Assembly (NCBI RefSeq): GCF_000428825.1 | Contig: NZ_AUAR01000007.1 | Location: forward strand, 1-64,000 | Length of the DNA: 64,000 nucleotides | Origin: Desulfomicrobium escambiense DSM 10707 | Lineage (GTDB): Bacteria > Desulfobacterota > Desulfovibrionia > Desulfovibrionales > Desulfomicrobiaceae | Direction of reading: 5' to 3' | Shown: piece by piece, positions 15,282-63,426 of the stretch | Position numbering within the stretch: position 1 is the first letter of the stretch | Layout of the letters: each line of letters starts with the position of its first letter | The notes under the pieces: model-generated | The model's input: only the letters and a program-made list of their open reading frames with translations | What the model was told of the DNA's origin: nothing | Database searches by the model: none | Made by a program: the position numbers and the translations under genes

Positions 15282-15298
15282 CGAAAGAATCGCCGACA
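15282..15298 (-). promoter_or_regulatory. Candidate PrsR-binding box upstream of PEP-CTERM gene 1
   Basis: The reverse strand reads TGTCGGCGATTCTTTCG, about 130 bp upstream of the sigma54 promoter. It shares 12 of 17 positions with the box at 63477-63493. An adjacent inverted repeat GTCTGA-N7-TCAGAC lies at 15303-15321. Confidence 0.45.
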
Positions 15299-15332
15299 TA
15301 CAGTCTGACAATTTATCAGACACGGACGGTCC

Positions 15333-16709
<1,377 letters not shown>

Positions 16710-16783
16710 GGCATCCCTCGATTCCTGCTAGGAGAACACTCTCACCCAGGTGCGCACGCCCATCGAACGCCGGCTCCCAGCCT

Positions 16784-16824
16784 GTCCACACCGTCCATAT
16801 GGTCCATTTCGTCCATCCAGTCCA
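16784..16824. repeat. Degenerate 9-nt periodic array, GTCCA-N4 (reverse TGGAC-N4), five copies
   Basis: GTCCA recurs at 16784, 16793, 16802, 16811 and 16820 in the 129-nt gap between prsK and prsR. Same unit and copy number as the array in aas (10019-10059), on the opposite strand. Confidence 0.75.
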
Positions 16825-16838
16825 CTCGATACTCCCCC

Positions 16839-18894: not shown

Positions 18895-19527
18895 CTACGA
18901 TGGCAGATACTCCCGTATCAGCGGATAGAACTCTTTCAGGAACGCCTCGACGACCTGCTCTGCCCGCTCCGTGTCCTCTTGGGCCGTCATGGATATGCGC
19001 ATGAAGCTCTGATCGCGACGACGGTGAAGGACGGACCCCGTGATCTCGGCAAGCTTCAGGGAATATTCGTCGGATATGGTCCGACCGCGCATAAAGAACC
19101 AGTAATAGATGACCTCACGGGTCGCCCCCATGGCGTAGACAGCCTTGACCAGGTTCACAGCCTCGCCGCCGAGGTTCATGGTGGTGCGCTCCGAGGAGAT
19201 TTCCGTCCACCCCCCCCCGGCCACGCAGTGCTTGGGGGAATGGATGCGGCCCGAGGCGGCGCCACCGTCGAAATAGCTCAGGTACATGTCCACCACGGCG
19301 CCGTCCGGACGAGCATAACGCCTGGAGAGATATTCCGTGGGCATGAGGACCTTCATGACCTTTTCGCTCAAGGAAGACTGCCCCACCATTTTCCAGCCGG
19401 AGTGCGAAGGGGGAAAGTCCCCGAAGGGCCTGGCCAGGGGCACCACCAGGTCGCTGTGCAGGTGCATGTACAGCCCGGCCCCGGCCAGCAGGGCGATGAG
19501 CACGGCGATGCGGATGGACGTGTTCAT
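18895..19527 (-). CDS. epsI: EpsI family exosortase-associated protein
   Basis: A 210-residue protein of the EpsI family (DUF3485): one N-terminal membrane or signal segment (IRIAVLIALLAGAGLYMHL), then an outer domain with GWKMVGQ, SYFDGGAASGRIHSPKHCV and YYWFFMRGR. In many XrtA systems this domain is fused to the exosortase; here it is a separate gene whose ATG overlaps the exosortase stop by 4 nt. The ATG at 19527 has AGGAGG 5 nt upstream and is preferred over an upstream GTG at 19533. Biochemical role not established. Confidence 0.92.
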   Translation of the reverse strand: MNTSIRIAVLIALLAGAGLYMHLHSDLVVPLARPFGDFPPSHSGWKMVGQSSLSEKVMKVLMPTEYLSRRYARPDGAVVDMYLSYFDGGAASGRIHSPKHCVAGGGWTEISSERTTMNLGGEAVNLVKAVYAMGATREVIYYWFFMRGRTISDEYSLKLAEITGSVLHRRRDQSFMRISMTAQEDTERAEQVVEAFLKEFYPLIREYLPS

Positions 19528-20357
19528 GGCCACCTCCTGAGAACGGCCCCCAGGGCCATGAACATGACGACGGCCCCGGCGAAGACGAAAAGTCCGGCAA
19601 ACTCATGGAAAAAGCCCTCCGCAGCGGCGGCCCCGAAATATTGCGCCAGAATGCCCGTGGCGATGACCCGCAGGCAGTTGGAAAAGACCGCGATGGGCAG
19701 GGTGGACGCGACGAGGATGACCCGGTCCCTGGTCCTGGAGTGCAGCACCATGGCGTACGCCACGCCCAGGGCCAGGAGGGACATGATGGAGCGCAGGCCG
19801 CTGCAGGCGTCGGCCACCTCCAGGGTGACGTTTGGGAACATGAGGATGTTGCCCTCCTGCCAGACGACGACACCCAGGAACTTGAGGGCCAGGACGGACA
19901 CCTTGGTCACGAAGAGCTTCAGGGGAAAGGCGGCCGCGTCGTACAGGATGTACGGCAGGGGAACCATGAGCAGCAGATAGGCGATCGGGACGAGCAGCGC
20001 GCGGAAGACCTCCCACCCCAGGAGGTAGAGCGTGGACCCGGCGATGACGACGACCAGGGAGGCCCGCATGGTGTAGTACTCCGTCGCCAGCCAGCCGAGC
20101 AGGAGAATGACGAGGCCGGCGACGACCACGGCCAGGCCCGCGGCGCAGGGGCGGACTTTCGCGGCCAGGAGATCCTCCCGGCGCATGTACGCGAGATAGG
20201 CCGAGACGAAAGGCACGAGGAATCCGTGGGAATAGTTCTCATCCTTGGCCCATTGCTTGACCATGGGCACGATGACAGGCCAGTACACGGCTCCGAGGGT
20301 TCCCAGCAGCAGAGCCGCCCCAAACAACACAAGCCTTCGATCCTGCAATTTTTCCAC
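19524..20357 (-). CDS. xrtA: Exosortase (XrtA type), transmembrane cysteine transpeptidase
   Basis: A 277-residue protein with about eight membrane helices and the exosortase catalytic set: Cys in DACSGLRSIMS (near 184), Arg in NCLRVIATG (near 229) and His in FFHEFAGLFVF (near 251). It removes the C-terminal PEP-CTERM helix from exported proteins and probably transfers them to an envelope acceptor. The start is assigned to GTG 20357, which has GAGG 8 nt upstream; the frame extends to 20459 without plausible sequence. First gene of the operon exosortase-epsI-prsK-prsR. XrtA is inferred from the PrsK/PrsR/PrsT context. Confidence 0.94.
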   Translation of the reverse strand: MEKLQDRRLVLFGAALLLGTLGAVYWPVIVPMVKQWAKDENYSHGFLVPFVSAYLAYMRREDLLAAKVRPCAAGLAVVVAGLVILLLGWLATEYYTMRASLVVVIAGSTLYLLGWEVFRALLVPIAYLLLMVPLPYILYDAAAFPLKLFVTKVSVLALKFLGVVVWQEGNILMFPNVTLEVADACSGLRSIMSLLALGVAYAMVLHSRTRDRVILVASTLPIAVFSNCLRVIATGILAQYFGAAAAEGFFHEFAGLFVFAGAVVMFMALGAVLRRWP

Positions 20358-20508
20358 GCAATTCACCTCATTATCCAATTTCTCGAGAAAATACACCCGA
20401 ACGTGGACATTGTAAAAAGAGACGTGGAAAACGAAATCTCCGAAAATGCAGTCAGCCAATTTTTCATGTACGCGGAACGAGAAGAGCCGTATGCTCTTTG
20501 CATTCTGT

Positions 20509-20524
20509 CGGTGTTAAAGATGCT
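20509..20524 (+). promoter_or_regulatory. Candidate sigma54 promoter for the VanZ-like gene
   Basis: CGGTGT-TAAAG-ATGCT keeps GG and GC ten nucleotides apart and lies 37 nt before the start codon. A partial PrsR-box match, TGTAA-N7-CG, is at 20411-20424 in the same divergent region. Weaker than the PEP-CTERM promoters. Confidence 0.4.
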
Positions 20525-20560
20525 TTTTCCCGATTTATTCCTCCGGTGGAGGACAAGCCC

Positions 20561-21475: not shown

Positions 21476-21490
21476 TCGGCATGCCGGACG

Positions 21491-22672
21491 CTATTCCCAA
21501 ATACCGTCCAGCGACTCCCGCGACACCTTCCCCCCCGCCAGCCTCCTGACCCGCCGCACGATCTGGCTCACGCCCCAACCCACGAACGGCAGGGGGTCCG
21601 TGCCGTAAAAATCGTCCATTCCCTCGACACGGCGCGGCAGGCCATCCTGAGCGGCCCCGCCGGACGCGCTGCGGGACGTCAGACCCACTATCCTGCGCAT
21701 CAGGTCGCCGCCGAGCCACTTCGTCGCCACCACCGGAGGCGAGGATGGCGCCGCAAAGCCCCCAAGGCCCATGGCGCACCTGTAATAATAGTAGGGAAAC
21801 TCTATGCCCCGGGCGATGCTTTGCTCCACGGAACCCCAGAAGCGCGGGTTGACATCAATGAGAAACGTCTCGTCGCGCGACCTGTCGTACAGGAAATCGG
21901 CCTGGCACGGGCCGTTCCATTGCAGGGCATCGAGCATCGTCTTCAGGGCGTCGCGGGCCCGGGGGTACTCCCTGCTCACCCTCAGCGTCGACTGACCGAA
22001 CGGGTGCGGATGCACCGCCAGAGTCTGATACGTGTCTCCGGCCACCAATTTTCCGCCGTCGTAGAGCATGGCGACATTGGCCATCTCGGCGTCGATCTTC
22101 TCTTGGACAAGATAGGCGCCAGCATTGAGACGCGCGGCCCGGACATGGCGGCGCAGGTGCCCGGCGTCGCGGATCTGGACGATGGCCCCCCCGCCGCCGC
22201 CCTGCTTCGGCTTGAGGACCGCGGGATAACGGAAGCCGTCGGGCAAGCGGCCATCCAGAGCGTCCGCCAGTTCCGCCGTCCGCGGCGTGGACACGCCGAA
22301 ACGGGCGGCCACATCCAAAAGGGAGCGCTTGTCGTGCAGGGCAAGGATGCCTCGGTAATCAGGCACGAGAGTCCGGACATGGGGCGCGAAGGCCGAGCGG
22401 TTTCGGGACACGAAGTAGGTCTCTTCGAGCACCGGGATGAGGACATCGATCTTCTCCTTTTCGATGATCCGCAGCACATCGGCAATGAAGGCGCCCTCAT
22501 CCCTGAACGGGGACGCGCAGATGTGCCGCCCGGACACGAACCTGGACCAGAACGACATGGCCAGCGGGTCCGGGTCCGCCGCGACCACATGAAGCCCGTG
22601 ACGGCGCAAGTTCCTGCAGATGCAGTACGCCACCCTGGAGCACGCCGATGTAACAAGCACCCTGCCCTTCAT
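21491..22672 (-). CDS. ATP-grasp ligase, last gene of the exopolysaccharide operon
   Basis: A 393-residue ATP-grasp enzyme: N-terminal Rossmann-like part (VLVTSACSRVAYCICRNLRR), ATP-binding region with YPAVLKPKQGGGGGAIVQI (near 150) and a metal-binding end DETFLIDVNPRFWGSVEQS (near 270). Such enzymes join a carboxylate to an amine or thiol through an acyl phosphate. The substrate is not apparent. Its ATG overlaps the stop of the preceding gene by 4 nt. Its position suggests amide decoration of the polymer or of a precursor. Confidence 0.85.
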   Translation of the reverse strand: MKGRVLVTSACSRVAYCICRNLRRHGLHVVAADPDPLAMSFWSRFVSGRHICASPFRDEGAFIADVLRIIEKEKIDVLIPVLEETYFVSRNRSAFAPHVRTLVPDYRGILALHDKRSLLDVAARFGVSTPRTAELADALDGRLPDGFRYPAVLKPKQGGGGGAIVQIRDAGHLRRHVRAARLNAGAYLVQEKIDAEMANVAMLYDGGKLVAGDTYQTLAVHPHPFGQSTLRVSREYPRARDALKTMLDALQWNGPCQADFLYDRSRDETFLIDVNPRFWGSVEQSIARGIEFPYYYYRCAMGLGGFAAPSSPPVVATKWLGGDLMRRIVGLTSRSASGGAAQDGLPRRVEGMDDFYGTDPLPFVGWGVSQIVRRVRRLAGGKVSRESLDGIWE

Positions 22673-49305: not shown

Positions 49306-51963
49306 TCAGGAGCCGGTTTGCAATTTCTTCAGCAAGGCTTCAGCCTCGGGCTTTGCGCCAAAGTCCTCCCCGCGCACCGCCTCCTCCAGTGCCAGTCTGG
49401 CCTCTTCCCTGCGCCCCAGCTGTTCCAGGGCCAGCCCCTTGTGGTACATGATCTCCCTGTTGCCGGGCGCCAGAGTGGATGCCCTTTCCAACACGCCGAG
49501 AGCCTCCTCCGAACGGTTGTTGCGCAACAGGACGTACCCCAGGGTGTCTGTAACCGACGCGTCCGTTCCGGCGCGGGCAAAGGCGGCCATGGCGAGATGC
49601 ACCGCCTGCATGCGGGTCTTCTCGCCATCGGCCCAGAGCATGGCCAGGTTGTTCAGAGCGGGAACAAAGTCGTTCCTGGCCTGCACGGCCTGCAGGTACA
49701 GCCTGGCGGCCTCGTCTTCGTTTTTCTGCTGCTGCGCGATCATGCCCTTGCCTGTCAGGGCATGCGGGTTTGCGGGATCCAGAGCGAGCGCACTGTCGAA
49801 AATGGCTTGGGCCTTATCCGGCTCCTTCATGCGCACATAGAGTTCGCCGAGCATGGTCAGGACAGAAACGTTTCCGGGCTCTTTCTCCAGCCCCTTGCGC
49901 AAGGCGGCCTCCGCCCCCACACGGTCCCCGCGGATTTCGAGGATGGCCGCCAGGGGCAGGTACGACCTCGCCTTGTCGGGCCCCAGGCCGACGAGGCGGC
50001 GAGCGCTGTCCTCGGCCTTGTCGAACTCGCCCAGGGCCATCCAGGCCCTGGTTCTCTCCATGATTCCGGTCCACGGATCAGCCGCTTCGAGCTGGCCATA
50101 CAGCGCCATGGCCTTGTCAGTCTCCTTGCGCGCGATGTGCAGCTTCGCCTTGGCCAGGATCAGATCCTGATTCGAAGGCTGCTTCTGCAACCCCCGATCG
50201 AGTACGGCCACCGCTTCGTCACTCATTCCGTGACGCTGCAGGAAGACCGAAAGCAGCAGGGTCGACCCGAGGTCGCCGCCGGCCTGCGCCTTCTCCAGCC
50301 GCTCCCTGGCCGCCTCGATCTTGCCCTGCCTTTCGAGCACGGCGGCGGAAGCCGTCAGGGCCCGCACGTCGTCGGGGGAAATGCCGAGAGCCAGGTCGAG
50401 CTGCGCCATGGCCTCGTCAGGCTTGCCCTGTACGAGCCGGAACACGGCGGCGTTGTAGTAGGTCGGAAGATATGACGGGTTCGCCTCCCGCGCTTTGAGG
50501 AGGTAGGCCTCGGCGCCTTCGGCGTCTTTTCGCCCCAGGGAGACCTTGGCCAGCGCATTGTACAGGATTGCGTCGGACCTGCTCCCATCCAGGCCGTCGG
50601 CAAGAATCTTCACGGCTTCGTCAACGCGCCCGGCGCGCAGATAATAGTCGTGCAGCGCCAGCCTGCAGTCGGTTCCGTTGGGCGAGACCTGAAGCGCCTT
50701 CAAAAGCTCCTGCTCCCCCCCCTTGTCCCCCAGGGCCAGCATCAGAAGGCCGGACTTGAGCAGCAGCCCGTAGTGCGACGGCGCGATGCCCTTGGCCTTG
50801 GCGTATTCGGCCAGAGCCTCGCGCGGCTTGCGCTCCAGCATCAGCCCGTCGCCCTTGATGGCGAATCCGCGAAAATCCTCGGGAGAGGTGTCGATCATCC
50901 TGTCCGCCACGGTCACGGCTTCCGCGCCCCGCCCCTGACGCAGGAATATCTCGGCGAGGACGATGCGGGCCTGGGCAAAGCCCGGACTGTAATCCAGAAC
51001 CGTCTGGAACTGGGTTACGGCCAATTCCAGATTGCCGCGGTAATAATGGGCCAGTCCGAGCAGGTAATAGGTTTCCAGATCCGGCTCGATGCGGATGGAG
51101 GTGTTCAGCGCCGTCACCGCGTCTTCGTATTTGCCCTCGCGCAACATGCACAGGCCCAGCAGGCGATAGCCCTCGGGCTTTTTGGGGTAGTCCCTGACCA
51201 TGCTTTCGGCCGACGCCCGGACCTCTTCGGCGCGTCCCTTGCCGATGAGCAGACTTCCCTCCTTGTAGCGCGCAAAAAGGTCTCCGGGGTCAATGGAGGT
51301 AATGCGGGCATAGACATCGAGCATACCCTCCGGATCCCGCTCCTGGGCCTCGAGACGCGCCAAGGCGTGCAACGCGGCCTGGTTTTTGGGATCGTCGGCC
51401 AGCAACTTGTCGATGGCTTCGCGGGCCTTGGCGCCCTCGCCCAGGGTCATGAAATTGTGAATCAATCCGAGCCGCGCAGAAACCCGCCCGGGTTCGATGG
51501 CCAGCGCCTTTTCGAGATATTCCCGCGATTGGACCGCGTCCCCGGAAATGGAGGCCGAAAGGGCGAGCTGTTCATACGCGCCGGCATCATCGGGGTGCTT
51601 CTCGAGAAAACTCATCAAAAGCGGCACAGCCACGGCCGGCCTGCTCTGGTAATTGGCGATGCGCGCCAGTTGGAACCGCACGCTGTCGTCGTAGGGGTTC
51701 TGTAGCTGGACCTTCTGAAATTCCCGCTCGGCCTGCTCCAGCTTCCCGGATTCGACATAGGCCATCGCAAGGTTGAAACGCGCCTCGACGAAGTTTGCAT
51801 CCTGCTCCAGGGCATTCTTGAAGTGGATGATCGCCCCGTTGAAGTTCCCTTGTTCAAGCAGGCTTTTCCCGTCCTGGTTCAAGGACTCCTTGGTATGGCT
51901 TTTGCAAGAAACCGTGATAACCAGAAGCGAAAGAGCGAACACTGTTGCGACTAACCTGACCAT
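49306..51963 (-). CDS. prsT: PrsT: XrtA/PEP-CTERM-system TPR-repeat lipoprotein
   Basis: An 885-residue protein: lipoprotein signal (LVATVFALSLLVITVSC, cysteine near 20) then about 20 or more TPR repeats to the end, with typical units such as NFVEARFNLAMAYVESGKLE and SVLTMLGELYVRMKEPDKAQ. This is the very long PrsT family that marks XrtA loci and probably scaffolds assembly in the periplasm. First gene of the reverse-strand operon; ribosome site GAGGAGGGAG precedes ATG 51963. The gap of 171 nt to the next gene has no obvious terminator. Confidence 0.94.
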   Translation of the reverse strand: MVRLVATVFALSLLVITVSCKSHTKESLNQDGKSLLEQGNFNGAIIHFKNALEQDANFVEARFNLAMAYVESGKLEQAEREFQKVQLQNPYDDSVRFQLARIANYQSRPAVAVPLLMSFLEKHPDDAGAYEQLALSASISGDAVQSREYLEKALAIEPGRVSARLGLIHNFMTLGEGAKAREAIDKLLADDPKNQAALHALARLEAQERDPEGMLDVYARITSIDPGDLFARYKEGSLLIGKGRAEEVRASAESMVRDYPKKPEGYRLLGLCMLREGKYEDAVTALNTSIRIEPDLETYYLLGLAHYYRGNLELAVTQFQTVLDYSPGFAQARIVLAEIFLRQGRGAEAVTVADRMIDTSPEDFRGFAIKGDGLMLERKPREALAEYAKAKGIAPSHYGLLLKSGLLMLALGDKGGEQELLKALQVSPNGTDCRLALHDYYLRAGRVDEAVKILADGLDGSRSDAILYNALAKVSLGRKDAEGAEAYLLKAREANPSYLPTYYNAAVFRLVQGKPDEAMAQLDLALGISPDDVRALTASAAVLERQGKIEAARERLEKAQAGGDLGSTLLLSVFLQRHGMSDEAVAVLDRGLQKQPSNQDLILAKAKLHIARKETDKAMALYGQLEAADPWTGIMERTRAWMALGEFDKAEDSARRLVGLGPDKARSYLPLAAILEIRGDRVGAEAALRKGLEKEPGNVSVLTMLGELYVRMKEPDKAQAIFDSALALDPANPHALTGKGMIAQQQKNEDEAARLYLQAVQARNDFVPALNNLAMLWADGEKTRMQAVHLAMAAFARAGTDASVTDTLGYVLLRNNRSEEALGVLERASTLAPGNREIMYHKGLALEQLGRREEARLALEEAVRGEDFGAKPEAEALLKKLQTGS

Positions 51964-52807: not shown

Positions 52808-53602
52808 ATGGACATCCTCCCGAAGAACCCTGTCCGTCTCCTGCCAGTCCTCCTCGGTGCCCTGTGCGTCGCGGCCAACGCAGCCATCTCCTACGCAGCG
52901 CCGTCGGGCCAGGAATTGGCCCGCATGGTCCACGACAGGTACGTCGGCGAGGACATGACATCGCGCCAGACCATGGAACTCGTGCCCGCGTCCGGGGAAA
53001 AGAGGGTCCGCGAACTTACGGTGACCGCAGCGGACAGGCAGGGCGTGCGCAAGAGCATCATCCGGTTTACGTCACCGGCGGACATCGAAGGCACCGGCTT
53101 CCTGGCCCTCGAAACAGACCAGGGCGAAACCGAGCAGTTCCTCTATCTTCCGGCTCTCAAGCGGACGCGGCGCATCGTGGCCGGCCAGAAGGGGCGCAGC
53201 TTCGTCAACACCGATTTCACCTATGAGGATATGGAAAGACGGGCCGTCGAGGATTCCGAACATGCCGTGACGGGCGAGGAAACCCTGGGCGGGGTGGCCT
53301 GCTGGATTCTGGAAAGCCGACCCAAGGCCGGGACCGATTCCCAGTACTCCATGGTGCGCGCCTGGGTGGCCAAGGACATGCTCTTGTCGTTGCGGGTGGA
53401 CTTCTTCATCGACGGAAAGGAACCGGTCAAACGCTTCAACGTGAAACAGATGGAACGCATCCAGGACATCTGGACCGAAACCAGCGTCGTCATGGAGGAT
53501 TTGCACTCAGGGCACAGAACGCTTCTCGAAACGAAGGAGATCACGTACAATTCGGGCATCCCGGACTCCGCCTTCACCCAGCAGGCTCTGGAGAGTTGGT
53601 GA
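52808..53602 (+). CDS. LolA-like outer-membrane lipoprotein-sorting family protein
   Basis: A 264-residue secreted protein: signal peptide (LLPVLLGALCVAANAAISYA), then the LolA-like fold with ELARMVHDRYVGEDM, RKSIIRFTSPADIEGTGFLA, QFLYLPALKRTRRI, GRSFVNTDFTYEDM and ITYNSGIPDSAFT at the end. In this family the hydrophobic cavity carries lipids, and genes are often grouped with MMPL exporters and barrel proteins, as here. It probably shuttles a lipid across the periplasm. First gene of the forward cluster; ribosome site is weak. Confidence 0.85.
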   Translation: MDILPKNPVRLLPVLLGALCVAANAAISYAAPSGQELARMVHDRYVGEDMTSRQTMELVPASGEKRVRELTVTAADRQGVRKSIIRFTSPADIEGTGFLALETDQGETEQFLYLPALKRTRRIVAGQKGRSFVNTDFTYEDMERRAVEDSEHAVTGEETLGGVACWILESRPKAGTDSQYSMVRAWVAKDMLLSLRVDFFIDGKEPVKRFNVKQMERIQDIWTETSVVMEDLHSGHRTLLETKEITYNSGIPDSAFTQQALESW

Positions 53603-53760
53603 GAAAAGGCTTTCGCCGTTAAAGAAACGCGAGAAACCGCCGAAAGAGCGTGAAAGAATCCACGCACGACGCGGGACTGTTCGACCTCCCGGCGGCAGCG
53701 CGGATTCCGCAAGGAATCGGGAAGCGGTTTCTGGACCGCCTGAAAAGCGACGGGGAAACG

Positions 53761-55641
53761 ATGCACACAAAAGCTCCAGTCCAAAGACGACAGCCGTTCC
53801 CCTCACGTACGCCGAGGGCGACGCGAGCGCGACGGGCGGTGCTCCTGGTCGCCCTGGCCGCGATGTTCCTCGCCGCCACCCCGCTTTTCCCAAGTGCGAG
53901 GCACGTGCTCTCGGACCTTTCCCTGACCACGGAAAAGGACGCCCTGACCCTGACCATCGCGGCATCCGGCGCGCCCCGGCAGACGAAGCATTTTTCTCTG
54001 ACCGACCCGATACGGCTGGTCGTGGATATCGCCCCGGCCGTCCTGCCCGGCGCGCCACGCAGCATTCCTGCCAACCATGCGCTCGTCGAACGCGTCCGGG
54101 CCGCGCAATTCGATGCGCAAACGGTACGGGTCGTCTTCGATCTGAAACAACCCGTCAGCCACCGTCTCGATATACGGCAGCCAGTTGACGATTCCGCCGG
54201 GCGGTCGCTCGTGTTCACCCTGACCGCGGAAAATGGCGGGACGGCCCAGGCCGAATCGCCAGCGACCGGACAGGCTGGTCCGGCCCCAGCCGCCGACTCG
54301 ACGGCGCACAACGAAAAAATCGTACTGCTCGGGGAATCCCCGGCCACCGGCTCGACGGTGCACAACGAAAAAATCGTGCTGCTCGGGGAATCCCCGGTCA
54401 CAGAGCGCACACGGCCGGACGCTTCCGGATGGGGCGAGGCATCCCTCTCGGGCTTCCTCATGGCCAAGGTTGCACAGGAACTCGACGAGGAAAAAAGTCC
54501 TGGTCAGCCCAGGATGTTCCGCAACACCGTCAGGGTTGAAGGGAAATGGGTGCCCGCGGGCTTTTCCGGTGGCGAAAACGCGAAAACGAACGCCGAAGCC
54601 GCATATCTGCTGGGCTCCGTGCAGTCCGACTACCTCTCCTTCGGCCCTGACCCGGCTTCGGACGAATACGACCTGGACCTTTTCGAGGCCTACCTCTTCC
54701 GCTCCACCCCCGACTGGGATCTGCGCCTGGGAAGGCAAATCGTGCGCTGGGGCAAGACTGACCAGATCAGCCCGGTGGACAACGTGAATTCCCAGGACAT
54801 GCGCGAATACCTCATTCCCGATCTCGAGGACCGCAAGCTTCCCAACTGGATGGCGCGGCTGCGCGCCTTCATCGGGAAAACGACCCTCGAAGCCGTCTTC
54901 ATTCCCTTCTTTGAACCCAACGAATTCGACTATACCGGCAACACTTGGGCGCTCCTCGGGACGGAGCCCGTCGGCCTGCGCGTGGAGGAAAGCGAACCGG
55001 AAGGATTGGACAACGCCGACTGGGGAATGCGCGCATCCCTGTCCCAAGGCGGGTGGGATGTTGCCGCGAGCTACCTGCGCGCAACGGAAAAGACGCCTCA
55101 CCTGGATCTCGACCCGTTCGACCCCGCCGGTCCGACGCTCCATGCCAACTACAGGCGCCAGAACATCTTCGGCGCCGAGTTCGAGACCACTGCCGGCTCG
55201 TTCGGTTTCAGGGGCGAGGCAGCCTATGTCGACCTGCAATCCTTTCCGACGGAAAGCCTCGACTCCGTCTCGAAATCCATGGTCCACACCGTCCTGGGCG
55301 TGGACTACCTGGGACAGAATGACTGGTACGCCAACATCCAGCTCTCCCATCAGCACATCTTCGGGTACGAAACAGACATCCTCTTTCTCAGCCGCGACAA
55401 CGTCTTCCTCAATGGCGAGGTCAACCGGGAGTTCCTGCGCGGCAACGCCAAGCTCAAGCTGCGCTACGCCGTGGACCTGACCAACGGAGGGGCCTTCCTG
55501 ACCCCCGAAGCCATACTGACCTCCGTCAGGGATCTCGAACTCTCCCTCGGAACCAACCTGTTCTTCGGTCCTGAGGACACCCTTTTCGGACGCTACCGCG
55601 ACGACAGCCAAGTCTTCCTCAGGGCGACCCGCTTCTTCTGA
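53761..55641 (+). CDS. AMIN-domain protein fused to an outer-membrane beta-barrel (DUF1302-like)
   Basis: A 626-residue protein. Signal segment RRAVLLVALAAMFLAATPLF (residues about 21-40). Residues about 45-150 resemble an AMIN domain (LTLTIAASGAPRQTKHFSLT, RLVVDIAP, VRVVFDLKQPVSHRLDI), which binds peptidoglycan or targets septal wall. An 18-residue unit is repeated twice (180-215). Residues about 220-626 form a barrel ending in FLRATRFF, with RLGRQIVRWGKTDQISPVDN typical of DUF1302-like barrels that accompany LolA/MMPL proteins. Start at ATG 53761 with GGGG upstream; the GTG-started longer frame is unlikely. The AMIN-barrel fusion is unusual. Confidence 0.82.
   Translation: MHTKAPVQRRQPFPSRTPRATRARRAVLLVALAAMFLAATPLFPSARHVLSDLSLTTEKDALTLTIAASGAPRQTKHFSLTDPIRLVVDIAPAVLPGAPRSIPANHALVERVRAAQFDAQTVRVVFDLKQPVSHRLDIRQPVDDSAGRSLVFTLTAENGGTAQAESPATGQAGPAPAADSTAHNEKIVLLGESPATGSTVHNEKIVLLGESPVTERTRPDASGWGEASLSGFLMAKVAQELDEEKSPGQPRMFRNTVRVEGKWVPAGFSGGENAKTNAEAAYLLGSVQSDYLSFGPDPASDEYDLDLFEAYLFRSTPDWDLRLGRQIVRWGKTDQISPVDNVNSQDMREYLIPDLEDRKLPNWMARLRAFIGKTTLEAVFIPFFEPNEFDYTGNTWALLGTEPVGLRVEESEPEGLDNADWGMRASLSQGGWDVAASYLRATEKTPHLDLDPFDPAGPTLHANYRRQNIFGAEFETTAGSFGFRGEAAYVDLQSFPTESLDSVSKSMVHTVLGVDYLGQNDWYANIQLSHQHIFGYETDILFLSRDNVFLNGEVNREFLRGNAKLKLRYAVDLTNGGAFLTPEAILTSVRDLELSLGTNLFFGPEDTLFGRYRDDSQVFLRATRFF
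54298..54405 (+). repeat. Tandem duplication of a 54-nt unit within the AMIN-barrel gene
   Basis: Two nearly identical copies (54298-54351 and 54352-54405) each encode an 18-residue unit of the form STxHNEKIVLLGESPxTx. Differences are a few silent or conservative bases. They sit in the linker between AMIN and barrel. Confidence 0.88.
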
Positions 55642-55831
55642 GCGCCTCCGCGCCCGCGCCTCGCCCTCCGACGGGAACGTCCGGGGTGCCGATCGATGGC
55701 GCAGAAAATGCACGGCATCATTCAATCACGCCGCATCGAAACCCGGCACGAAGCACAGCCCCAGGGCAAACCTTGAACGGCAGGGCAGAGCATGTTTGCT
55801 GAATCGGGAGCCAGAGCGTTTCGTCGCCAGC

Positions 55832-55901
55832 AGCGCCACGTCGCGCCGCGTGGCGCTCGGCATTCCCGCACGCGCACCCCGGCGCAGCTCACTCGTGAGC
55901 T
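55832..55901. promoter_or_regulatory. Two inverted repeats upstream of the FeeM-like gene
   Basis: A nine-base-pair stem AGCGCCACG/CGTGGCGCT (55832-55840 with 55849-55857) and, 25 nt before the FeeM start, a perfect palindrome AGCTCAC-TC-GTGAGCT (55886-55901). No T tract, so more likely operator sites or a translational hairpin. The 284-nt gap holds nothing else clear. Confidence 0.45.
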
Positions 55902-55925
55902 CAAAACACGAAGCGAGGACCGACC

Positions 55926-56804
55926 ATGAGCGCCGAATCCGATCACGTCATCCTGGAACGGCGCAGATCCGTCCGTCTGCGACGTTCAGCCATGCTCCAG
56001 TCCAAGCTGGAGGAGATCGACCGCCCGAACATCAAGATCGCCGAGAACCGCGACGAGTTCGCCCAATCCTTCGCCCTGGTCTACCGCGAGTACCTTGCCT
56101 CGGGATACATCAAGAACCCGCACCCCACCGAATTGCACCTGAGTGCCTTCAATTTCCTCCCCACGACGTGCGTCTTCATCTTCCGAAGCTACCTGACCGT
56201 CATTTCGACCCTGACCCAGATCTTCGACAGCAGACTGTTCGGGCTGCCCATGGACGCCCTGTATGGTCCGGAGCTGAACCAGTTGCGCGATCAGGGGCGC
56301 AAGCTCACGGAACTCTCGGCGCTGGCCACGCCCCGGGAAATCCGCTGGTGCAACCTGATGGTCTTCCTGTCCAAAACCATGTTCGAGTATTCGCGGATCA
56401 ACAACGTCGACGACATCTGCATCATGGTCAATCCGAAGCATGTCAGTTTCTACAAAACCATGTTCCTCTTCGATGACTTCGGCCCAGAAAGATTCTATGC
56501 TGGGGTTGGAGCTCCTGCAGTGGCGCTGCGTATCAACATGGACCACATCGAGCAGAACCTCCTGGAAAAATACCAGACGTTCGATGTGGACGGAAACCTT
56601 CACGAATTCTTCTGCAAAATGAGCACGACAATGTCCGAGCTACAGGACGGTTGGACCTTCCACGAAAAGAGACATGCCATGGAGACGGAGGCGGCGAAAT
56701 TCTTCTTCGGTGCGAGGCCCGACATCTTCAGCAACCTCAGCAAGGAACAGCTCAATTACATGCGCCATCTGTACCCGTTCATCGACACCGGAGCCGGGGT
56801 GTAG
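55926..56804 (+). CDS. FeeM-like N-acyl amino acid synthase (LuxI/GNAT-fold)
   Basis: A 292-residue protein of the FeeM/exosortase-associated acyltransferase type. RPNIKIAENRDEFAQSFALVYREY and ELHLSAFNFLPTTCVFIFR match the N-terminal acyl-synthase region; RQGRKLTELSALATP-like LRDQGRKLTELSAL (near 125) and MVFLSKTMFEYSRINNVDDI give the GNAT-like core, with MVNPKHVSFYKTMFLFDDFG after it. FeeM makes N-acyl amino acids from acyl-ACP and an amino acid. Here it overlaps functionally with an exporter that starts 3 nt after its stop. Start fixed by GAGG 7 nt upstream. Amino acid and chain are unknown. Confidence 0.82.
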   Translation: MSAESDHVILERRRSVRLRRSAMLQSKLEEIDRPNIKIAENRDEFAQSFALVYREYLASGYIKNPHPTELHLSAFNFLPTTCVFIFRSYLTVISTLTQIFDSRLFGLPMDALYGPELNQLRDQGRKLTELSALATPREIRWCNLMVFLSKTMFEYSRINNVDDICIMVNPKHVSFYKTMFLFDDFGPERFYAGVGAPAVALRINMDHIEQNLLEKYQTFDVDGNLHEFFCKMSTTMSELQDGWTFHEKRHAMETEAAKFFFGARPDIFSNLSKEQLNYMRHLYPFIDTGAGV

Positions 56805-56807
56805 GCC

Positions 56808-59099
56808 ATGAGCCTCCTGCCATCCTCCGTCAAAATGCTCATCCCGAAACTGGTGACCCGCCGCCCCACCGTCTGCCTCATCCTGTCGGCGCTGCTGGCG
56901 CTCCCGTTCCTCATGCAGCTCCCGGCCGTCAGGACCGTGGACAACGTGGACTATTTCACCCTCGAAGGGGACCCGGACGTCGCCTTCTACGACTCCATCA
57001 AAAAGACCTTCGGCGATGACGAGTTCTTCCTGATCGCCTTCACGAGCGATTCGCTCTTCACGGCCCAAAGCCTGCGCGCCATCGTCGACATTACCGCCGG
57101 CCTCAAGGGCATCCCCGAAGTGCGCAAGGTACAGAGCCTGGCCAATGTGGACTACATCCACGGCTCGACCGACTACTTCGAGGTGCGTCCCTTCCTGGAG
57201 CGCATCCCCGACGACGCCGAAAGCCTGGAGAAGCTTAGACGCGACGCCGTCGAGAACCCGCTGTATGTAGGCAACCTCATTTCCGCCGACGGCCGCTCCA
57301 CGGCCCTGGCAGTCTTTCCCAAAGCCCACGCCTCCGAGGACGGCAGCTTCCGCAAGCGTCTCCTCGACAAGGCCAGGCAAATACTGGCGGAGCACGCCGG
57401 CCTGGGCGATTCGTTCCATCTCGCCGGATGGACGGTGACCAACCTGAGTCTCAGCCAGTACATGAAGTCCGACGTGGCGGTCTTCATCCCCGTGACCTAC
57501 CTCTTCATCGCCCTGACCATCTGGCTGGTCTTCCGCAGCGTACGCCTGACCATCCTGGCCGTGATCAACATCTCCGTCTGCACGGGTACGACCATGGGGT
57601 TGTTCCCGCTCATGGGCGTCACGCTGAACAACGTGACGACCATCGTGCCCCCGCTGGTCATGGCCCTGGCTCTGGCAGACTCGGTGCACATCTTCTCCCA
57701 TCTGGACAGGAGCCTGCTCGAAAGCGGACTCGACCCGGCCGGGGCCATGGAGCACGTGCTGCAGAGGGTCATCGTCCCCTGTTTCCTGACCAGCCTGACC
57801 ACGGCCGTGGGTTTCATCTCGCTGATCGTGAGCGACATACCGCCCATCAAGGAGTTCGGCTGGCTGGCCTCGGCCGGCATGCTCTTCGAGTTCGCCTTCT
57901 CCTTCCTGCTGCTGCCTCCCCTGCTGCTCTTGTGCAGGCCCGAATCCGTCTTCATCCACAGCCTCAAGGCAAAGGGGCTTAATGTCTTCCTGTCCCGGCT
58001 CTCGGATTTCATCGAAGCCCGACCCCGGCGCATAGCCCTGTCCGCGGCGTTGCTGGTGACCGTGGCCGTCGGCTTTGCAGCGACAATTCGGGTGGAAACC
58101 AACCTGCTGGAGTATTTCAAGGAGTCAAGCCGGTTGCGGCAGGATTTGCGCTACGTCGAAGAGCACCTGAGCGGAGTGGGCACCGTGGACGTCTCCATAC
58201 GGTCCCCGCGGCGCGACGCGTTCCGTGAACCGGAGAGCCTGGCCGTGATCCAGGACATTCAGGGCTTCGCAAGCGCGTTGCCGGGGGTGGACAAGACCAT
58301 GTCCATGGTGGACTTCCTCAAGGACATGAACATGTCCTTCCACGACGAGGACAGCCGGTTCCACGCCATTCCGGAAAGCAGGGAACTCGTCTCCCAATAC
58401 CTGCTGCTGTACGATTCGGACGAACTCGGCGAGTTCGTCACCTCCGACTACGACCACGCCCGCATCCTCCTACGCATCTCCGAGCACAGCTCCGCGGGGC
58501 AGGCCAGGATCATCGACGCCCTGCGCGGGTTCCTCGCCCGCTACGCAACAGCAGACTTGAGTATACGCATCACCGGGCGGGCGGTTCAGGACGTCAACAC
58601 CATCGACGCGCTGGTCTGGGGACAGGTCGAGAGCCTGGCGCTGGCCGCCGCCGTGATCACGCTGATCATGTTCCTGGCCCTGGGTTCGGCGCGCAGCGGT
58701 GCGCTGAGCCTCGTGCCCAACATCTTCCCCATCGTGCTGAACTTCGGCCTCATGGGCGCCCTCGGAATCCCCCTGAACACGTCGACGGCCCTCATCTCCG
58801 TGGTCGCCCTGGGCATCGCAGTGGACGACACCATCCACTTCCTGACCGAATACAACGCGCAACGCGGCCGGGGTACGCCCATACCCCAGGCGCTGCGCAC
58901 GGTCACGCTGGAGAAGGGTCTGGGCATCTGCTCCTCGTCCATCATCCTGGTCATCGGCTTCGGCGTCCTCGTCCTGAGTAGCTTCGTACCCACCATCAGC
59001 TTCGGCGGTCTAAGCGCCGTGATCATGCTCACCGCCTGGGTCGGCGACATGGTCGTGCTGCCCGCCTTCATCCTCTCCAGGCGTCCCGCATCCTCCTGA
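56808..59099 (+). CDS. MMPL/RND-superfamily lipid exporter
   Basis: A 763-residue membrane protein with the duplicated RND layout: helix 1 (PTVCLILSALLALPFLMQLP), a periplasmic domain, helix bundle with GVTLNNVTTIVPPLVMALAL and DSVHIFSHLD, a second half starting RRIALSAALLVTVAVGFAAT, and GIAVDDTIHFLTEYNAQRGR near 680. Both DxxH-type signatures are MMPL features. These exporters move lipids or acyl compounds from the inner membrane; the adjacent synthase, LolA-like protein and barrel suggest a dedicated route to the outer membrane. ATG 56808 follows the FeeM stop by 3 nt. Confidence 0.9.
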   Translation: MSLLPSSVKMLIPKLVTRRPTVCLILSALLALPFLMQLPAVRTVDNVDYFTLEGDPDVAFYDSIKKTFGDDEFFLIAFTSDSLFTAQSLRAIVDITAGLKGIPEVRKVQSLANVDYIHGSTDYFEVRPFLERIPDDAESLEKLRRDAVENPLYVGNLISADGRSTALAVFPKAHASEDGSFRKRLLDKARQILAEHAGLGDSFHLAGWTVTNLSLSQYMKSDVAVFIPVTYLFIALTIWLVFRSVRLTILAVINISVCTGTTMGLFPLMGVTLNNVTTIVPPLVMALALADSVHIFSHLDRSLLESGLDPAGAMEHVLQRVIVPCFLTSLTTAVGFISLIVSDIPPIKEFGWLASAGMLFEFAFSFLLLPPLLLLCRPESVFIHSLKAKGLNVFLSRLSDFIEARPRRIALSAALLVTVAVGFAATIRVETNLLEYFKESSRLRQDLRYVEEHLSGVGTVDVSIRSPRRDAFREPESLAVIQDIQGFASALPGVDKTMSMVDFLKDMNMSFHDEDSRFHAIPESRELVSQYLLLYDSDELGEFVTSDYDHARILLRISEHSSAGQARIIDALRGFLARYATADLSIRITGRAVQDVNTIDALVWGQVESLALAAAVITLIMFLALGSARSGALSLVPNIFPIVLNFGLMGALGIPLNTSTALISVVALGIAVDDTIHFLTEYNAQRGRGTPIPQALRTVTLEKGLGICSSSIILVIGFGVLVLSSFVPTISFGGLSAVIMLTAWVGDMVVLPAFILSRRPASS

Positions 59100-59165
59100 C
59101 TCGTTTCTGCCGATCAACGTGCTTCCGACGCTTCCGGAGCGGTGTAAAATATCGCGACCCCGGCT

Positions 59166-59182
59166 TGTCGACGGACCTTACA
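59166..59182 (+). promoter_or_regulatory. Candidate PrsR-binding box upstream of PEP-CTERM gene 2
   Basis: TGTCGACGGACCTTACA, 64 bp upstream of the sigma54 promoter. It shares TGTCG-N6-CTTACA exactly with the box at 63477-63493 (read on the reverse strand). Confidence 0.5.
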
Positions 59183-59245
59183 GAAGTCCTGGATCGCCGC
59201 ATCAAATTCAAAATTTTATTCAATGAATATCGAATATTGAGCAAA

Positions 59246-59261
59246 TGGAACAGAATATGCT
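59246..59261 (+). promoter_or_regulatory. Sigma54 (-24/-12) promoter for PEP-CTERM gene 2
   Basis: TGGAAC-AGAAT-ATGCT with GG and GC ten nucleotides apart, about 68 nt before the start codon. Confidence 0.7.
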
Positions 59262-59328
59262 GATTCGTGACAAAGGCGCTTGGCTTAAGCCGGATATTAA
59301 CTTTTTTTTCAGATTTCAGGAGGGTTTT

Positions 59329-60189
59329 ATGCTGAAATTCAAAAAAATAGCATTCCTGGCCCTTATGGCCACCCTGTTCTGCGGAAGTGCGTGGGCGTAT
59401 TCCTCGGTGATGTGGGATCTGAGCACCATCGGCTATAACGCTTATGTCGGAGGCATCACACCTCTGGACAACATCACCTACGATGAGGTCATCGGCATCA
59501 CCAACGCCGGGGAGGACTTCCCCTTCAAGTCCCACATCCTGCAGGATCTCGGTGCCGACCATATGCTCTCCAATGGTGACACCTTCACCGAATACGGAGC
59601 GTTAGGCATCGTCACCAAGGACGGCACCGCGTCATTTTTCGGAAAATTCGTGACCATCGACGATGTCCTTCAGAATATCCCTGCATACATCTACTATGAA
59701 TTCGAAGGCCTTGCCGGCTACATCGACAATGTGGTGGGCAACACCTACGACATCATCTTCACTCCTGGGGTCGGCAGCGTTTCCCTGTACGCCTCCACGG
59801 ACCTTGCAGGCGCCCCGGAATACACCCTGGCCACGTTCGACCTGATCAAGGCCGGCGCCACAGGATTCCTTCTGGACGAAGGCGCTGAACTCAACGGCGC
59901 GTTCAGCTTCACCATGGGATTTGCCAGCGTCCTCGACAACTTCTGGTACATCGACGGAAAGGAACTCACGGATCTGAGTTCCATCCTCGGGTATGCCGAC
60001 ATCAACGCCAACCTGCTGACCGCCGTCCCGATCCTTAACGGCGACCAGATTCCGATCGCACTCAACCTGACCGTTGAGAATTCCGGAACGGTCCGCCATG
60101 CGCCTGTCCCGGAACCGACGACCGTGATACTCCTCGGTGCCGGACTGCTGGGGCTGGGCTTCATGGCCCGCCGCCGCAAAGCTGAGTAA
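59329..60189 (+). CDS. PEP-CTERM protein 2, exported exosortase substrate
   Basis: A 286-residue secreted protein: signal peptide (KIAFLALMATLFCGSAWA, then YSS) and C-terminal VPEPTTVILLGAGLLGLGF followed by MARRRKAE, a textbook PEP-CTERM signal. The interior is acidic and beta-rich (TLATFDLIKAGATGFLLDEG) without an enzyme motif. The start at ATG 59329 has AGGAGG 5 nt upstream; the longer frame from 59245 overlaps the promoter. It lies between the RND exporter and the ThiF fusion but has its own sigma54 promoter and terminator. Confidence 0.93.
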   Translation: MLKFKKIAFLALMATLFCGSAWAYSSVMWDLSTIGYNAYVGGITPLDNITYDEVIGITNAGEDFPFKSHILQDLGADHMLSNGDTFTEYGALGIVTKDGTASFFGKFVTIDDVLQNIPAYIYYEFEGLAGYIDNVVGNTYDIIFTPGVGSVSLYASTDLAGAPEYTLATFDLIKAGATGFLLDEGAELNGAFSFTMGFASVLDNFWYIDGKELTDLSSILGYADINANLLTAVPILNGDQIPIALNLTVENSGTVRHAPVPEPTTVILLGAGLLGLGFMARRRKAE

Positions 60190-60210
60190 CGTTGCCTCAT
60201 CGCTCTGCCG

Positions 60211-60240
60211 AGCCGGGAAGAGACTCTCTTCCCGGCTTTT
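60211..60240 (+). terminator. Rho-independent terminator after PEP-CTERM gene 2
   Basis: GCCGGGAAGAG (60212-60222) pairs perfectly with CTCTTCCCGGC (60226-60236) around ACT and is followed by TTTT. Confidence 0.92.
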
Positions 60241-60297
60241 CGTGCTCACAATTCCCGGCATTTTTCGTACGCCGACAGCAAAACCAGGGGGCCGACC

Positions 60298-62337
60298 GTG
60301 AAGCGAAACGAGCATCTGGAACATCTGAGCGCCCTGGGCTACCTTGACCCCGCCGCCTACCATGACGTCGCATTTTCCCGCAACATAGGCCTGCTCTCGC
60401 CCGGAGAACAGGAACGCCTGGCCGGGGCCAGGGTGGCCATACCCGGCATGGGCGGGGTCGGCGGCGTCCACCTGCTCAACCTCGTGCGCACTGGCATCGG
60501 AAATTTCAACTTGGCGGACTTCGACGTCTTCGAGGCGGCCAACGTGAACCGGCAGGCCGGGGCCAAGGTGCCGGCCTTCGGCCGCCCCAAGCTCGAGGTC
60601 ATGATCGGCGAGGCCCTGGCCATCAACCCATTCGTGTCCATCGACCCGTTCTCCGACGGCCTGACCATGGATAACATGGCCAGATTCCTGAGCGGAGTCG
60701 ACGCGGTCCTCGACGGCCTCGATTTTTTCCAGTTCGAAATCCGGCGCACGCTTTTCAATACGGCCCGTTCCATGGGCATCCCGGTCATCACCGCCGGCCC
60801 CCTGGGCTTCAGCTCCGCGTTGCTGGTCTTCACCGCGGACGGCATGTCCTTCGATGAGTACTTCGACGTACGCGATAGCCTGTCCATGGAGGAGAAGTAC
60901 CTGCATTTCGCCATGGGCCTTGCGCCCAGGCCGACGCAGATCGGCTACATGGACCTCTCCCGCGTGGATCTGCGCGGCGGCAAGGGGCCGTCCTTGAGCA
61001 TCGCCTGCCAGCTTTGCGCCGCCCTCGCCGCGACCGAGGCCGTACGTGTCATCCTGGGCAGGCCGGGCCTGAAGCCTGCGCCCTCTTTCCTGCAGGTCGA
61101 CCCGTATCTCCGCACGCTGCGCCAGGGCAGGCTGCCCTGGGGCAACCGCTCGCCCCTACAGCGCCTCAAGATCTGGTACGTGCGCAACGTGCTCCTCGCC
61201 GCCGCGGCCAAGGCCCGGCCGGAAGTACCGCCAATGCCGGCCGCGGTCGACACGCCATCCGCCGTTCCGTCGCCCGAGATGGCGGACTACCTGCTCCAGG
61301 CCGCCGTGCGCGCCCCCTCGGGCGACAACGTCCAGCCATGGCGCTTTCGGCTGACAGACAACGCCATCCAGGTCTTCATGGATTCCGACGCGGACAGGTC
61401 ATTCTTCAACATCCGCCAGACCGCATCGGTCATCGCTTCCGGGGCTGCGCTGGAGAACATCTCCCTGGCAGCCGCGTCCGCTGGGTTGCGCGCGACCGTG
61501 ACGATACGGCCGGACGCCGCGCAGGAGAATCTCATGGCCGAGGTGCGATTTGAACCCGGCGCCCCCGACCCATCACCCCTGGCGCGCTGCATATGGACGC
61601 GCTGTACCAACCGCCGTCCGTACTCGCGACGGCCGTTGCCGGCCTGGCTGCAGGAAGATCTCAAAGCTCGCCTGACTGACATGCCCGGTGCGGACCTGCA
61701 CCTGCTGACGACGCGCAGCCAGCTGCGCAGGCTGGCCAGGGTGGTCTACCTGGCGGACAGAATCCGCACGGAGCACAGGGGACTGCACGAACATTTCGTC
61801 TCCATGGTCCGCTTCAGCGCCCACGACGCACAGCGGACGCGGGACGGCCTGCCTTTGCCGAACCTTGAGGCCGGCCGGGCCGGTGACGTCTTCCTGCGTC
61901 TGACCAGGCCGTGGCAGGCCATGCGCATCGCCAATGCCCTGCGCCTCGGACGGCTGGCCGCCCTGCACTCGGGCCGCGGCATCCTCGCCAGCGGGGCTGC
62001 GGGGCTGGTTGTCGTCGATGGTTTCGAAGAGCGCGACTTTCTGCTCGGCGGGCAGGCGCTGCAGCGGATCTGGCTGGCCCTGGACCATCACGGCCTGCAG
62101 ATGCAGCCCATGACGGCCGTTACGCTGTTCTGGCTGCGCTGGCTGTGGGAAGGGGAGGATGCCTTTGCCGGCGGCCACAGGTCAATGCTTGAAGTGGTCT
62201 GGGACGAGTTGCAGGCGCTCTTCACAGGCGTGAATTTCAACCGTCAGGGTCTGGTCATGCTGTTCCGCACCGGCTATGGCCCAGGGATACGCCACCGTAC
62301 CCTGCGCAAGGGCGTCGACACCTTTCGCATGCCATGA
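60298..62337 (+). CDS. ThiF/E1-like adenylyltransferase fused to a nitroreductase-family domain
   Basis: A 679-residue two-domain protein. Residues 1 to about 300 are E1-like: ARVAIPGMGGVGGVHLLNLV (GxGGxGG, near 50), FDVFEAANVNRQAGAKVPAF with the Arg-Gln pair, and DAVLDGLDFFQFEIRRTLFN. Residues about 330-679 resemble a nitroreductase: LQAAVRAPSGDNVQPWRF near 345, SVIASGAALENISLAAASAG, and a late GGQALQRIWLALDHHGLQMQ. The first activates carboxylates by adenylation; the second is an FMN oxidoreductase fold. Together they may activate and oxidise or reduce a peptide or acyl-amino-acid product. GTG start with AGGGGG 6 nt upstream. Substrate unknown. Confidence 0.85.
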   Translation: MKRNEHLEHLSALGYLDPAAYHDVAFSRNIGLLSPGEQERLAGARVAIPGMGGVGGVHLLNLVRTGIGNFNLADFDVFEAANVNRQAGAKVPAFGRPKLEVMIGEALAINPFVSIDPFSDGLTMDNMARFLSGVDAVLDGLDFFQFEIRRTLFNTARSMGIPVITAGPLGFSSALLVFTADGMSFDEYFDVRDSLSMEEKYLHFAMGLAPRPTQIGYMDLSRVDLRGGKGPSLSIACQLCAALAATEAVRVILGRPGLKPAPSFLQVDPYLRTLRQGRLPWGNRSPLQRLKIWYVRNVLLAAAAKARPEVPPMPAAVDTPSAVPSPEMADYLLQAAVRAPSGDNVQPWRFRLTDNAIQVFMDSDADRSFFNIRQTASVIASGAALENISLAAASAGLRATVTIRPDAAQENLMAEVRFEPGAPDPSPLARCIWTRCTNRRPYSRRPLPAWLQEDLKARLTDMPGADLHLLTTRSQLRRLARVVYLADRIRTEHRGLHEHFVSMVRFSAHDAQRTRDGLPLPNLEAGRAGDVFLRLTRPWQAMRIANALRLGRLAALHSGRGILASGAAGLVVVDGFEERDFLLGGQALQRIWLALDHHGLQMQPMTAVTLFWLRWLWEGEDAFAGGHRSMLEVVWDELQALFTGVNFNRQGLVMLFRTGYGPGIRHRTLRKGVDTFRMP

Positions 62338-62476: not shown

Positions 62477-63361
62477 CTACCTGCGCAACCTGCGTCCCAT
62501 GAAGGCCAGGGCCGACATGCCAAGCCCCAGCAGGATCAGGGTCGAAGGCTCAGGTACGATGTTGCGCTGGAACGCACCGGAAAGATAGATTTCTTCCGGT
62601 CCGTCATTGAGGTTCGTGAAGTATGGGGTGAAGGAGATGATCCGTCCGGTGGCGTTGTAGAGCGCCAGGTCCAGATCGGGCGCATAGAGCAGGAAGTCTG
62701 CGAATCCGCCGCCGATGTTGCTGTTCACGGTCGAACTATTTGTCGCGGATATCGGGAAGGTGATCTCTTCCGGGACTTTGACCAAATCCATCTGGTTGTA
62801 GACTCCGTTGGTCGAATTATCGAAAGACCAGGACCTGACCACGTCGCCGTTGGCCTCGGTGATGGTGACGATGCCGCTCACGTACTCGGTGCCCTCGCCT
62901 TCCTTCATGTCCTGGTTCAGGTCATAAATGATCACCGGGATGGAGGTCTGGTAGTTTTCCAGCAGGAACGCGAGCAGGTTACTGACAGACGCGGACCACG
63001 TCGCGGTCTGGGTTAAAACCTGGTCCGTACTTTTTCGTAAATCGAGTTCCGATGTTGAATTCATGAAGTCGGTTCCGTCGACATCGGGATTGTCGCTAGA
63101 TGGTCCTGACCACATCACCAAATCCAGCGTTCCGGAACCGGCTTTGTACTTGTACAGGTCCGCGTACTGCTTGCTGACATAATAGTCGGATTTGCTATTC
63201 CCGTAGAGTTCCTGCAGCACGGCTGTCGAATACGAATAAAACTGGTCGTACTGCATGGCGAACGGCAACACGGGCTCGGGCAGATAGATGGCCGCCCACG
63301 ACGGCGCCGCCAGCAGGATCAGGCATGCCGCCCCTAAAATCCTCTTAAGCATGATTCGCAT
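62477..63361 (-). CDS. PEP-CTERM protein 3, exported exosortase substrate
   Basis: A 294-residue secreted protein: signal peptide (ILGAACLILLAAPSWAA), a Tyr/Ser/Asn-rich body (QYDQFYSYSTAVLQELYGNS, IPVIIYDLNQDMKEGEGTEY) and the C-terminal signal VPEPSTLILLGLGMSALAFM followed by GRRLRR. Start ATG 63361 has GGAGG 8 nt upstream; a second ATG at 63352 is possible. It has a strong sigma54 promoter upstream and a strong terminator downstream. Role unknown; presumably a matrix or surface protein. Confidence 0.92.
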   Translation of the reverse strand: MRIMLKRILGAACLILLAAPSWAAIYLPEPVLPFAMQYDQFYSYSTAVLQELYGNSKSDYYVSKQYADLYKYKAGSGTLDLVMWSGPSSDNPDVDGTDFMNSTSELDLRKSTDQVLTQTATWSASVSNLLAFLLENYQTSIPVIIYDLNQDMKEGEGTEYVSGIVTITEANGDVVRSWSFDNSTNGVYNQMDLVKVPEEITFPISATNSSTVNSNIGGGFADFLLYAPDLDLALYNATGRIISFTPYFTNLNDGPEEIYLSGAFQRNIVPEPSTLILLGLGMSALAFMGRRLRR

Positions 63362-63410: not shown

Positions 63411-63426
63411 AGCAATAACAGTGCCG
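63411..63426 (-). promoter_or_regulatory. Sigma54 (-24/-12) promoter for PEP-CTERM gene 3
   Basis: The reverse strand reads CGGCAC-TGTTA-TTGCT, one mismatch from the TGGCAC-N5-TTGC[AT] consensus, about 50 nt before the start codon. Best match of the promoters in this window. Confidence 0.82.

Follow-up and report, generated by a model that had tools for sequence, protein, structure and literature searches.

What is made by a set of genes that combines an N-acyl amino acid synthase with an adenylating and oxidizing fusion enzyme and an envelope exporter, and why does it lie amid exosortase genes? The question is raised by positions 52808-62337 of a 64,000-nucleotide stretch of Desulfomicrobium escambiense DSM 10707 (a probable sulphate reducer; contig NZ_AUAR01000007.1, the whole stretch being referred to as the window), for which a preliminary description had listed genes for a LolA-like carrier, an AMIN-domain barrel, a FeeM/LuxI-like synthase, an MMPL/RND exporter, a PEP-CTERM protein and a ThiF-nitroreductase fusion. 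All of these genes are present on the plus strand in the order claimed, and their coordinates were confirmed. From the evidence given below, this cassette likely makes and exports an acyl-oxazolone-type lipid within the exopolysaccharide programme of exosortase A (XrtA). The best reading of the product is an exported acyl-oxazolone, or a dehydro- or N-acyl amino acid arising from it, under joint regulation with the XrtA matrix.

An indication of the pathway is given by the last gene of the cassette (60298..62337, plus strand), encoding a 679-residue protein with a ThiF domain at residues ~27-300 and an Acg-kind flavin-dependent oxidase (FDO) at ~320-676. This OxzB/TrzS-like fusion matches PF00899, PF00881, NF011424 (1064 bits, 676 of the 679 residues covered) and NF005901, the equivalog of TrzS (Rv1355c). 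The latter match (1e-81) attains 274.8 bits and does not reach the cut-off of 476; hence, the protein is an enzyme of the same kind from another subfamily and is not filed as TrzS. In a Foldseek comparison of its AF2 model (pLDDT 84), the best match was Acg (2YMV), followed by ThiF, MoeB, PaaA, MccB and AclA. The ATP-site positions R85, K98 and D142 of the ThiF half are invariant among ten homologues and twelve proteins of the Rv1355c (TrzS) family that a genome search gave from Actinobacteria, as are R490 and the motif APSGxNxQPW of the FDO half between Desulfovibrionales and actinobacterial proteins. By alignment and spacing, D142, R490 and Q603 correspond to D217, R540 and Q651, which have been probed by mutation in Mycobacterium smegmatis TrzS (PMC12856293). 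Whereas D142 and R490 are invariant, several Actinobacteria have His or Arg in place of Q603. A plasmid search for actinobacterial TrzS gave matches only in Nitratidesulfovibrio and Bdellovibrio.

The FeeM-type N-acyl amino acid synthase is encoded at 55926..56804 (plus strand; PF21926 with E 3e-45, PDB 2G0B by profile with 4e-21), its domain score of 154 bits passing the curated cut-off of 27, and in line with this family match an N-acyl amino acid is likely the first product, as previously proposed. A FeeM-type synthase together with a ThiF-FDO fusion has been shown to yield acyl-oxazolones in the OxzAB and TrzAS systems, while in TyzACB the oxazolone activities reside on separate proteins (PMC10404671, PMC12856293). 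Three sequence hallmarks of this pathway, i.e., feeM near a thiF gene, the fusion of ThiF with an Acg-like FDO and the match of the tested TrzS residues, were all found. Close relatives (L039-L044) possess two tandem feeM paralogues of about 35-40% likeness, corresponding to the window region 55641-55926; the second alone is retained in DSM 10707, and one relative (G014) shows the first only, its contig ending shortly after. In a Kitasatospora locus (L103:7380-8540, minus strand), a FeeM-like protein bearing a C-terminal cyclic-nucleotide-binding domain (PF00027) is encoded beside ThiF-FDO, which suggests that acylation may be regulated by a cyclic nucleotide in this actinobacterium.

The remaining cassette genes encode a putative exporter. 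At 52808..53602 (plus strand), a LolA-like periplasmic lipid-carrier protein is predicted (PF17131, E 9e-60; profile matches to PDB 9tp6, 4z48 and 3bk5), LolA_like being single-copy in this genome (G000). It is followed at ~53755..55641 (plus strand) by an AMIN plus DUF1302 protein (PF11741, PF06980), a predicted outer-membrane beta-barrel. Its AF2 model is of low confidence (pLDDT 61), with abundant long beta strands and weak matches to porins and AlgE, and a placement finer than beta-rich and porin-like was dropped because the model is too poor. The third component, at 56808..59099 (plus strand), is an MMPL/HAE3-type RND exporter (PF03176, 2e-26; TIGR00921, 2e-50, below cut-off). The export route suggested in the preliminary description via these three proteins is plausible in view of their likeness to the Ame efflux system (PMC6394551).

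That the genes act as a set is indicated by comparison of neighbourhoods bearing FeeM and ThiF-nitroreductase pairs, in which they co-occur in order. Among 61 related genomes, a strong FeeM match was obtained in 20 and a ThiF-FDO gene in 14, the latter always (14/14) located within ~8 kb of feeM and in most cases with the LolA-like/DUF1302/MMPL set interleaved. Neighbourhoods fetched from six close relatives show the order LolA-DUF1302-FeeM-(second FeeM)-MMPL-ThiFFDO with PrsT divergent upstream, and in three other families the same genes are found partly rearranged and down to ~45% identity. As the arrangement is repeated in related genera of several families, it is not due to chance. In three genomes (G024, G049 and G052), FeeM-LolA-DUF1302-MMPL was found with no ThiF-FDO nearby. 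A shared pathway is further supported by fusion of FeeM, ThiF and FDO into one chain in Nitratidesulfovibrio: on plasmid pDVUL01 of N. vulgaris (NC_008741.1, L138:11077-14046), the 2970-base gene DVUL_RS15680 (989 aa) is divergent from an XrtA export operon, with PEP-CTERM genes downstream, and in N. liaohensis the fused gene (L079:8669-11980) also lies beside an XrtA operon. In another relative (G004), ThiF-FDO is fragmented over different reading frames (L052:1122-3102, minus strand), so that either the gene is disrupted or the draft assembly contains an error. The PEP-CTERM gene between MMPL and ThiF-FDO (59329..60189, plus strand; TIGR02595 above cut-off), likely starting at ATG 59329 behind GGAGG rather than at 59245, was rejected as a pathway member, as relatives lack it at that place and a local insertion is indicated. 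The earlier wording of a system interleaved with PEP-CTERM genes was therefore overstated. A second PEP-CTERM gene, convergent with ThiF-FDO (62477..63361, minus strand; TIGR02595 above cut-off), is a conserved neighbour with orthologues in five relatives (G001, G007, G010, G013 and G015).

Since island genes flank it on both sides, the cassette is located within an XrtA island. Divergent from it, the XrtA-system TPR protein PrsT is encoded at 49306..51963 (minus strand; TIGR02917 with 498 bits at a cut-off of 312), and an XrtA-associated CAAX protease (TIGR03008) is found at the window end, continuing beyond. Further upstream are exosortase A (19524..20459, minus strand; TIGR03109 above cut-off), the sigma54 activator PrsR and the kinase PrsK of the XrtA system (15333..18890, minus strand; TIGR02915 and TIGR02916 above cut-off), a PEP-CTERM protein (14301-15323) and XrtA-specific glycosyltransferase, chain-length, tyrosine-kinase, ATPase and export genes. 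Hence, the XrtA/PEP-CTERM system is complete, with XrtA, PrsK, PrsR, PrsT and PEP-CTERM substrates all found.

Besides this island position, co-occurrence counts corroborate the claimed link to the exosortase system. Of the 20 FeeM genomes, 19 possess an exosortase gene versus 6 of the 41 others, and for ThiF-FDO genomes the figures are 14/14 versus 11/47 others, both counts from the 61 relatives being uncorrected for kinship. An even draw across the phylum, likewise uncorrected and with most matches spanning only the ThiF part, gave 7/9 versus 44/149 (p = 0.005). Within 79 loci sampled from Desulfobacterota, Alpha-, Beta- and Gammaproteobacteria, Planctomycetota and one actinobacterium, a FeeM/LuxI-like gene occurs in 62, the acyltransferases of several proteobacterial loci matching Acetyltransf_5 or Autoind_synth better than FeeM. 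In 22 of 61 loci, a convergent PEP-CTERM gene follows downstream within 3 kb, and PEP-CTERM density is about three times greater inside 3 kb than beyond. In the Methylomonas genomes L084 and L086, ThiF, FDO, acyltransferases and a PEP-CTERM gene are found together. According to the papers citing it (PMC4897644, PMC7293339), the link between FeeM and exosortase was already published by Craig et al. (2011). In the oxazolone papers searched, exosortase is not mentioned, and a paper with both 'exosortase' and 'tyrazolone' was not found in the literature searched. The outline of the preliminary description was thus right; its statement that no described pathway has this set was wrong, as FeeM, ThiF and flavin oxidase constitute the acyl-oxazolone pathway (PMC10404671, PMC12856293), and is also undercut by the FeeM-exosortase link as reported in those citing papers.

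Joint regulation was assessed with a simple sigma54 matrix built from general knowledge of the consensus. A pattern search over the whole window gave 25 sites versus 28 expected, which is no better than chance; information is carried solely by where a site lies with respect to genes. Each of the two PEP-CTERM genes adjoining ThiF-FDO has a good-scoring site 50-70 bases upstream, namely the candidate promoters TGGAACAGAATATGCT (59246..59261, plus strand) and, for the second, CGGCACTGTTATTGCT (63411..63426, minus strand), the latter with an orthologous TGGCAT-N5-CTGCT in five relatives. In related loci, a sigma54-like site is present at 26 of 32 PEP-CTERM genes compared to 5.5% of random 300-base stretches, and an RpoN-dependent PEP-CTERM promoter with TGGCAC/CTGCTT has been mapped in Aquincola (PMC9850573). 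A candidate promoter, TGGCGCAGAAAATGCA, is also located 213 bases upstream of feeM (55697..55712, plus strand), with a similar upstream site at the orthologous feeM in five relatives and moderate statistical support, and no convincing site was seen before the LolA gene in the window or in relatives. At 15139-15154 (minus strand), the sigma54-like site TGGAACCAAGATTGCA with one mismatch lies close to where the PEP-CTERM gene 14298-15323 starts, suggesting that this gene may begin further downstream than its longest frame.

By analogy with OxzAB, TyzACB and TrzAS, FeeM would acylate an amino acid with a fatty acyl group from acyl-ACP or acyl-CoA. Adenylation of the carboxylate by the ThiF half would allow an oxazolone ring to close, and desaturation would fall to the Acg-like flavin half. 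MMPL pump, LolA-like carrier and DUF1302 barrel, if acting as in Ame efflux, might bring the lipid to or through the outer membrane, and the PrsK/PrsR/sigma54 regulon may drive expression jointly with PEP-CTERM proteins. The product might aid formation of the polysaccharide matrix, a role for which the genetic evidence comes solely from Methylomonas: in strain LW13, a polysaccharide band requires an N-acyl amino acid synthase linked to PEP-CTERM. Together with the location of MmpL9 next to the M. tuberculosis tyz genes (PMC10404671), the Methylomonas synthase points to a putative role in the envelope.

Several observations weigh against this interpretation and lend weight to others. The known FDO step, O2-dependent in TrzS and TyzC, consumes oxygen, yet the relatives are sulphate reducers and the close ones anaerobic, and no such product is known from any Desulfobacterota. 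Moreover, the relatives are not independent samples, and the feeM promoter site is found in 6 of 17 lineages with a threshold set after looking. Stieleriacine and kyonggic acid producers, which have ThiF and nitroreductase, give open dehydro-acids and not oxazolones. It is accordingly conceivable, if doubtful, that the end product here is an open-chain N-acyl dehydro-amino acid of the stieleriacine/thalassotalic type, secreted as surfactant or antibiotic, with the oxazolone as transient intermediate, given that no oxazolone was seen in N-acyl dehydrotyrosine producers with the same three enzyme types and that oxazolone rings are readily hydrolysed. However, the missing oxazolones may reflect extraction, and OxzB and TrzS, for which oxazolone release has been proven, are ThiF-FDO fusions like that of the cassette.

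As to export, the trio of MMPL, LolA-like and DUF1302 genes is found together in just 8 of 46 well-flanked loci, so that this export route is lineage-limited; moreover, other genomes including relatives have LolA_like genes away from feeM, and the exporter set is missing next to the fused N. vulgaris gene. The latter two findings would fit an envelope lipid or efflux system unrelated to the oxazolone genes and merely adjoining them. This is unlikely, however, as the interleaved order is kept in the genus and, partly rearranged, in other families, the sole LolA_like gene of this genome sits in the cassette, and LolA_like is within a few kb in 15 of the 20 FeeM-bearing relatives. In the gammaproteobacterial loci L088, L089 and L093 (near 19500-22000), LolA-like and MMPL genes lie ~8 kb downstream of ThiF-FDO; hence, the exporter link may reach beyond Desulfobacterota. 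The multi-part envelope lipid exporter in turn argues against a diffusible signal akin to acyl-homoserine lactones that would switch on the XrtA/PEP-CTERM programme via PrsK, as could be imagined from the LuxI/FeeM-like acyltransferases and from the sensor kinase and sigma54 activator of the same island. XrtA systems without an oxazolone cassette also have PrsK and PrsR, and a ligand-binding regulator is not present in the cassette, leaving such a signal rather improbable. An elaboration of the acyl-oxazolone reading, very improbable as it stands, is that the exported oxazolone serves as a ready-activated acyl donor lipidating exopolysaccharide or exosortase-processed proteins, the strained ring reacting with hydroxyl or amino groups outside the cell and requiring neither ATP nor an enzyme there. 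As the known step requires O2, desaturation in these anaerobes would perhaps proceed at the oxic edge only and thereby couple matrix building to oxygen. The earlier suggestion that the product decorates or anchors PEP-CTERM proteins did not gain direct support. Since alcoholysis of the oxazolone ring has been seen in vitro, covalent acylation of the matrix is chemically possible, no more.

New here is that a probable pathway for oxazolone-type lipids, with exporter genes interleaved, is housed in an exosortase island, the chemistry and the FeeM-exosortase link having been known before. The pathway is thereby tied to exosortase/PEP-CTERM matrix islands in several phyla, and an exporter candidate is supplied for Gram-negative relatives. 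For the mycobacterial oxazolone lipids, the physiological role has been called a major unresolved question by their authors (PMC12856293), and the island context provides a lead, namely that such lipids may help to build a sticky cell matrix. It also raises the question of how an O2-using desaturase operates in anaerobes.

Among known systems, TrzAS (M. tuberculosis, M. smegmatis and R. jostii) and OxzAB (Pseudoalteromonas rubra) likewise combine an N-acyltransferase gene with one ThiF-FDO fusion, and agreement extends to the ATP-site residues and, as judged from alignment and spacing, to the FDO residues that were tested. In contrast to the cassette, with its interleaved exporter set and probable anaerobe host, the respective papers give no exosortase or polysaccharide context. 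TyzACB of M. tuberculosis provides the same three activities and, with mmpL9 adjacent, resembles the cassette in its MMPL component, but ThiF and FDO are separate and a LolA-like or DUF1302 partner is not described. Clusters for N-acyl dehydrotyrosines (stieleriacines, thalassotalic and kyonggic acids) share N-acyl amino acid synthase, ThiF and nitroreductase, that of Stieleria even a PEP-CTERM gene; however, ThiF and nitroreductase are encoded separately, the products are open-chain and no such exporter set is described. The exporter itself is best compared with the monoterpene efflux system AmeABCD of Castellaniella (PMC6394551), which also combines DUF1302, a LolA-superfamily periplasmic protein and an HAE3 RND pump. 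Unlike in AmeABCD, biosynthesis genes are interleaved, the LolA-like protein belongs to PF17131 and not to full DUF1329, and the AmeC-like COG4447 domain is in none of the genes at 52808-62337. Finally, among the FeeM/N-acyl amino acid synthase genes of Craig et al. (2011), FeeM is found next to XrtA and PEP-CTERM genes just as in the window, that link concerning, according to the citing papers, the synthase.

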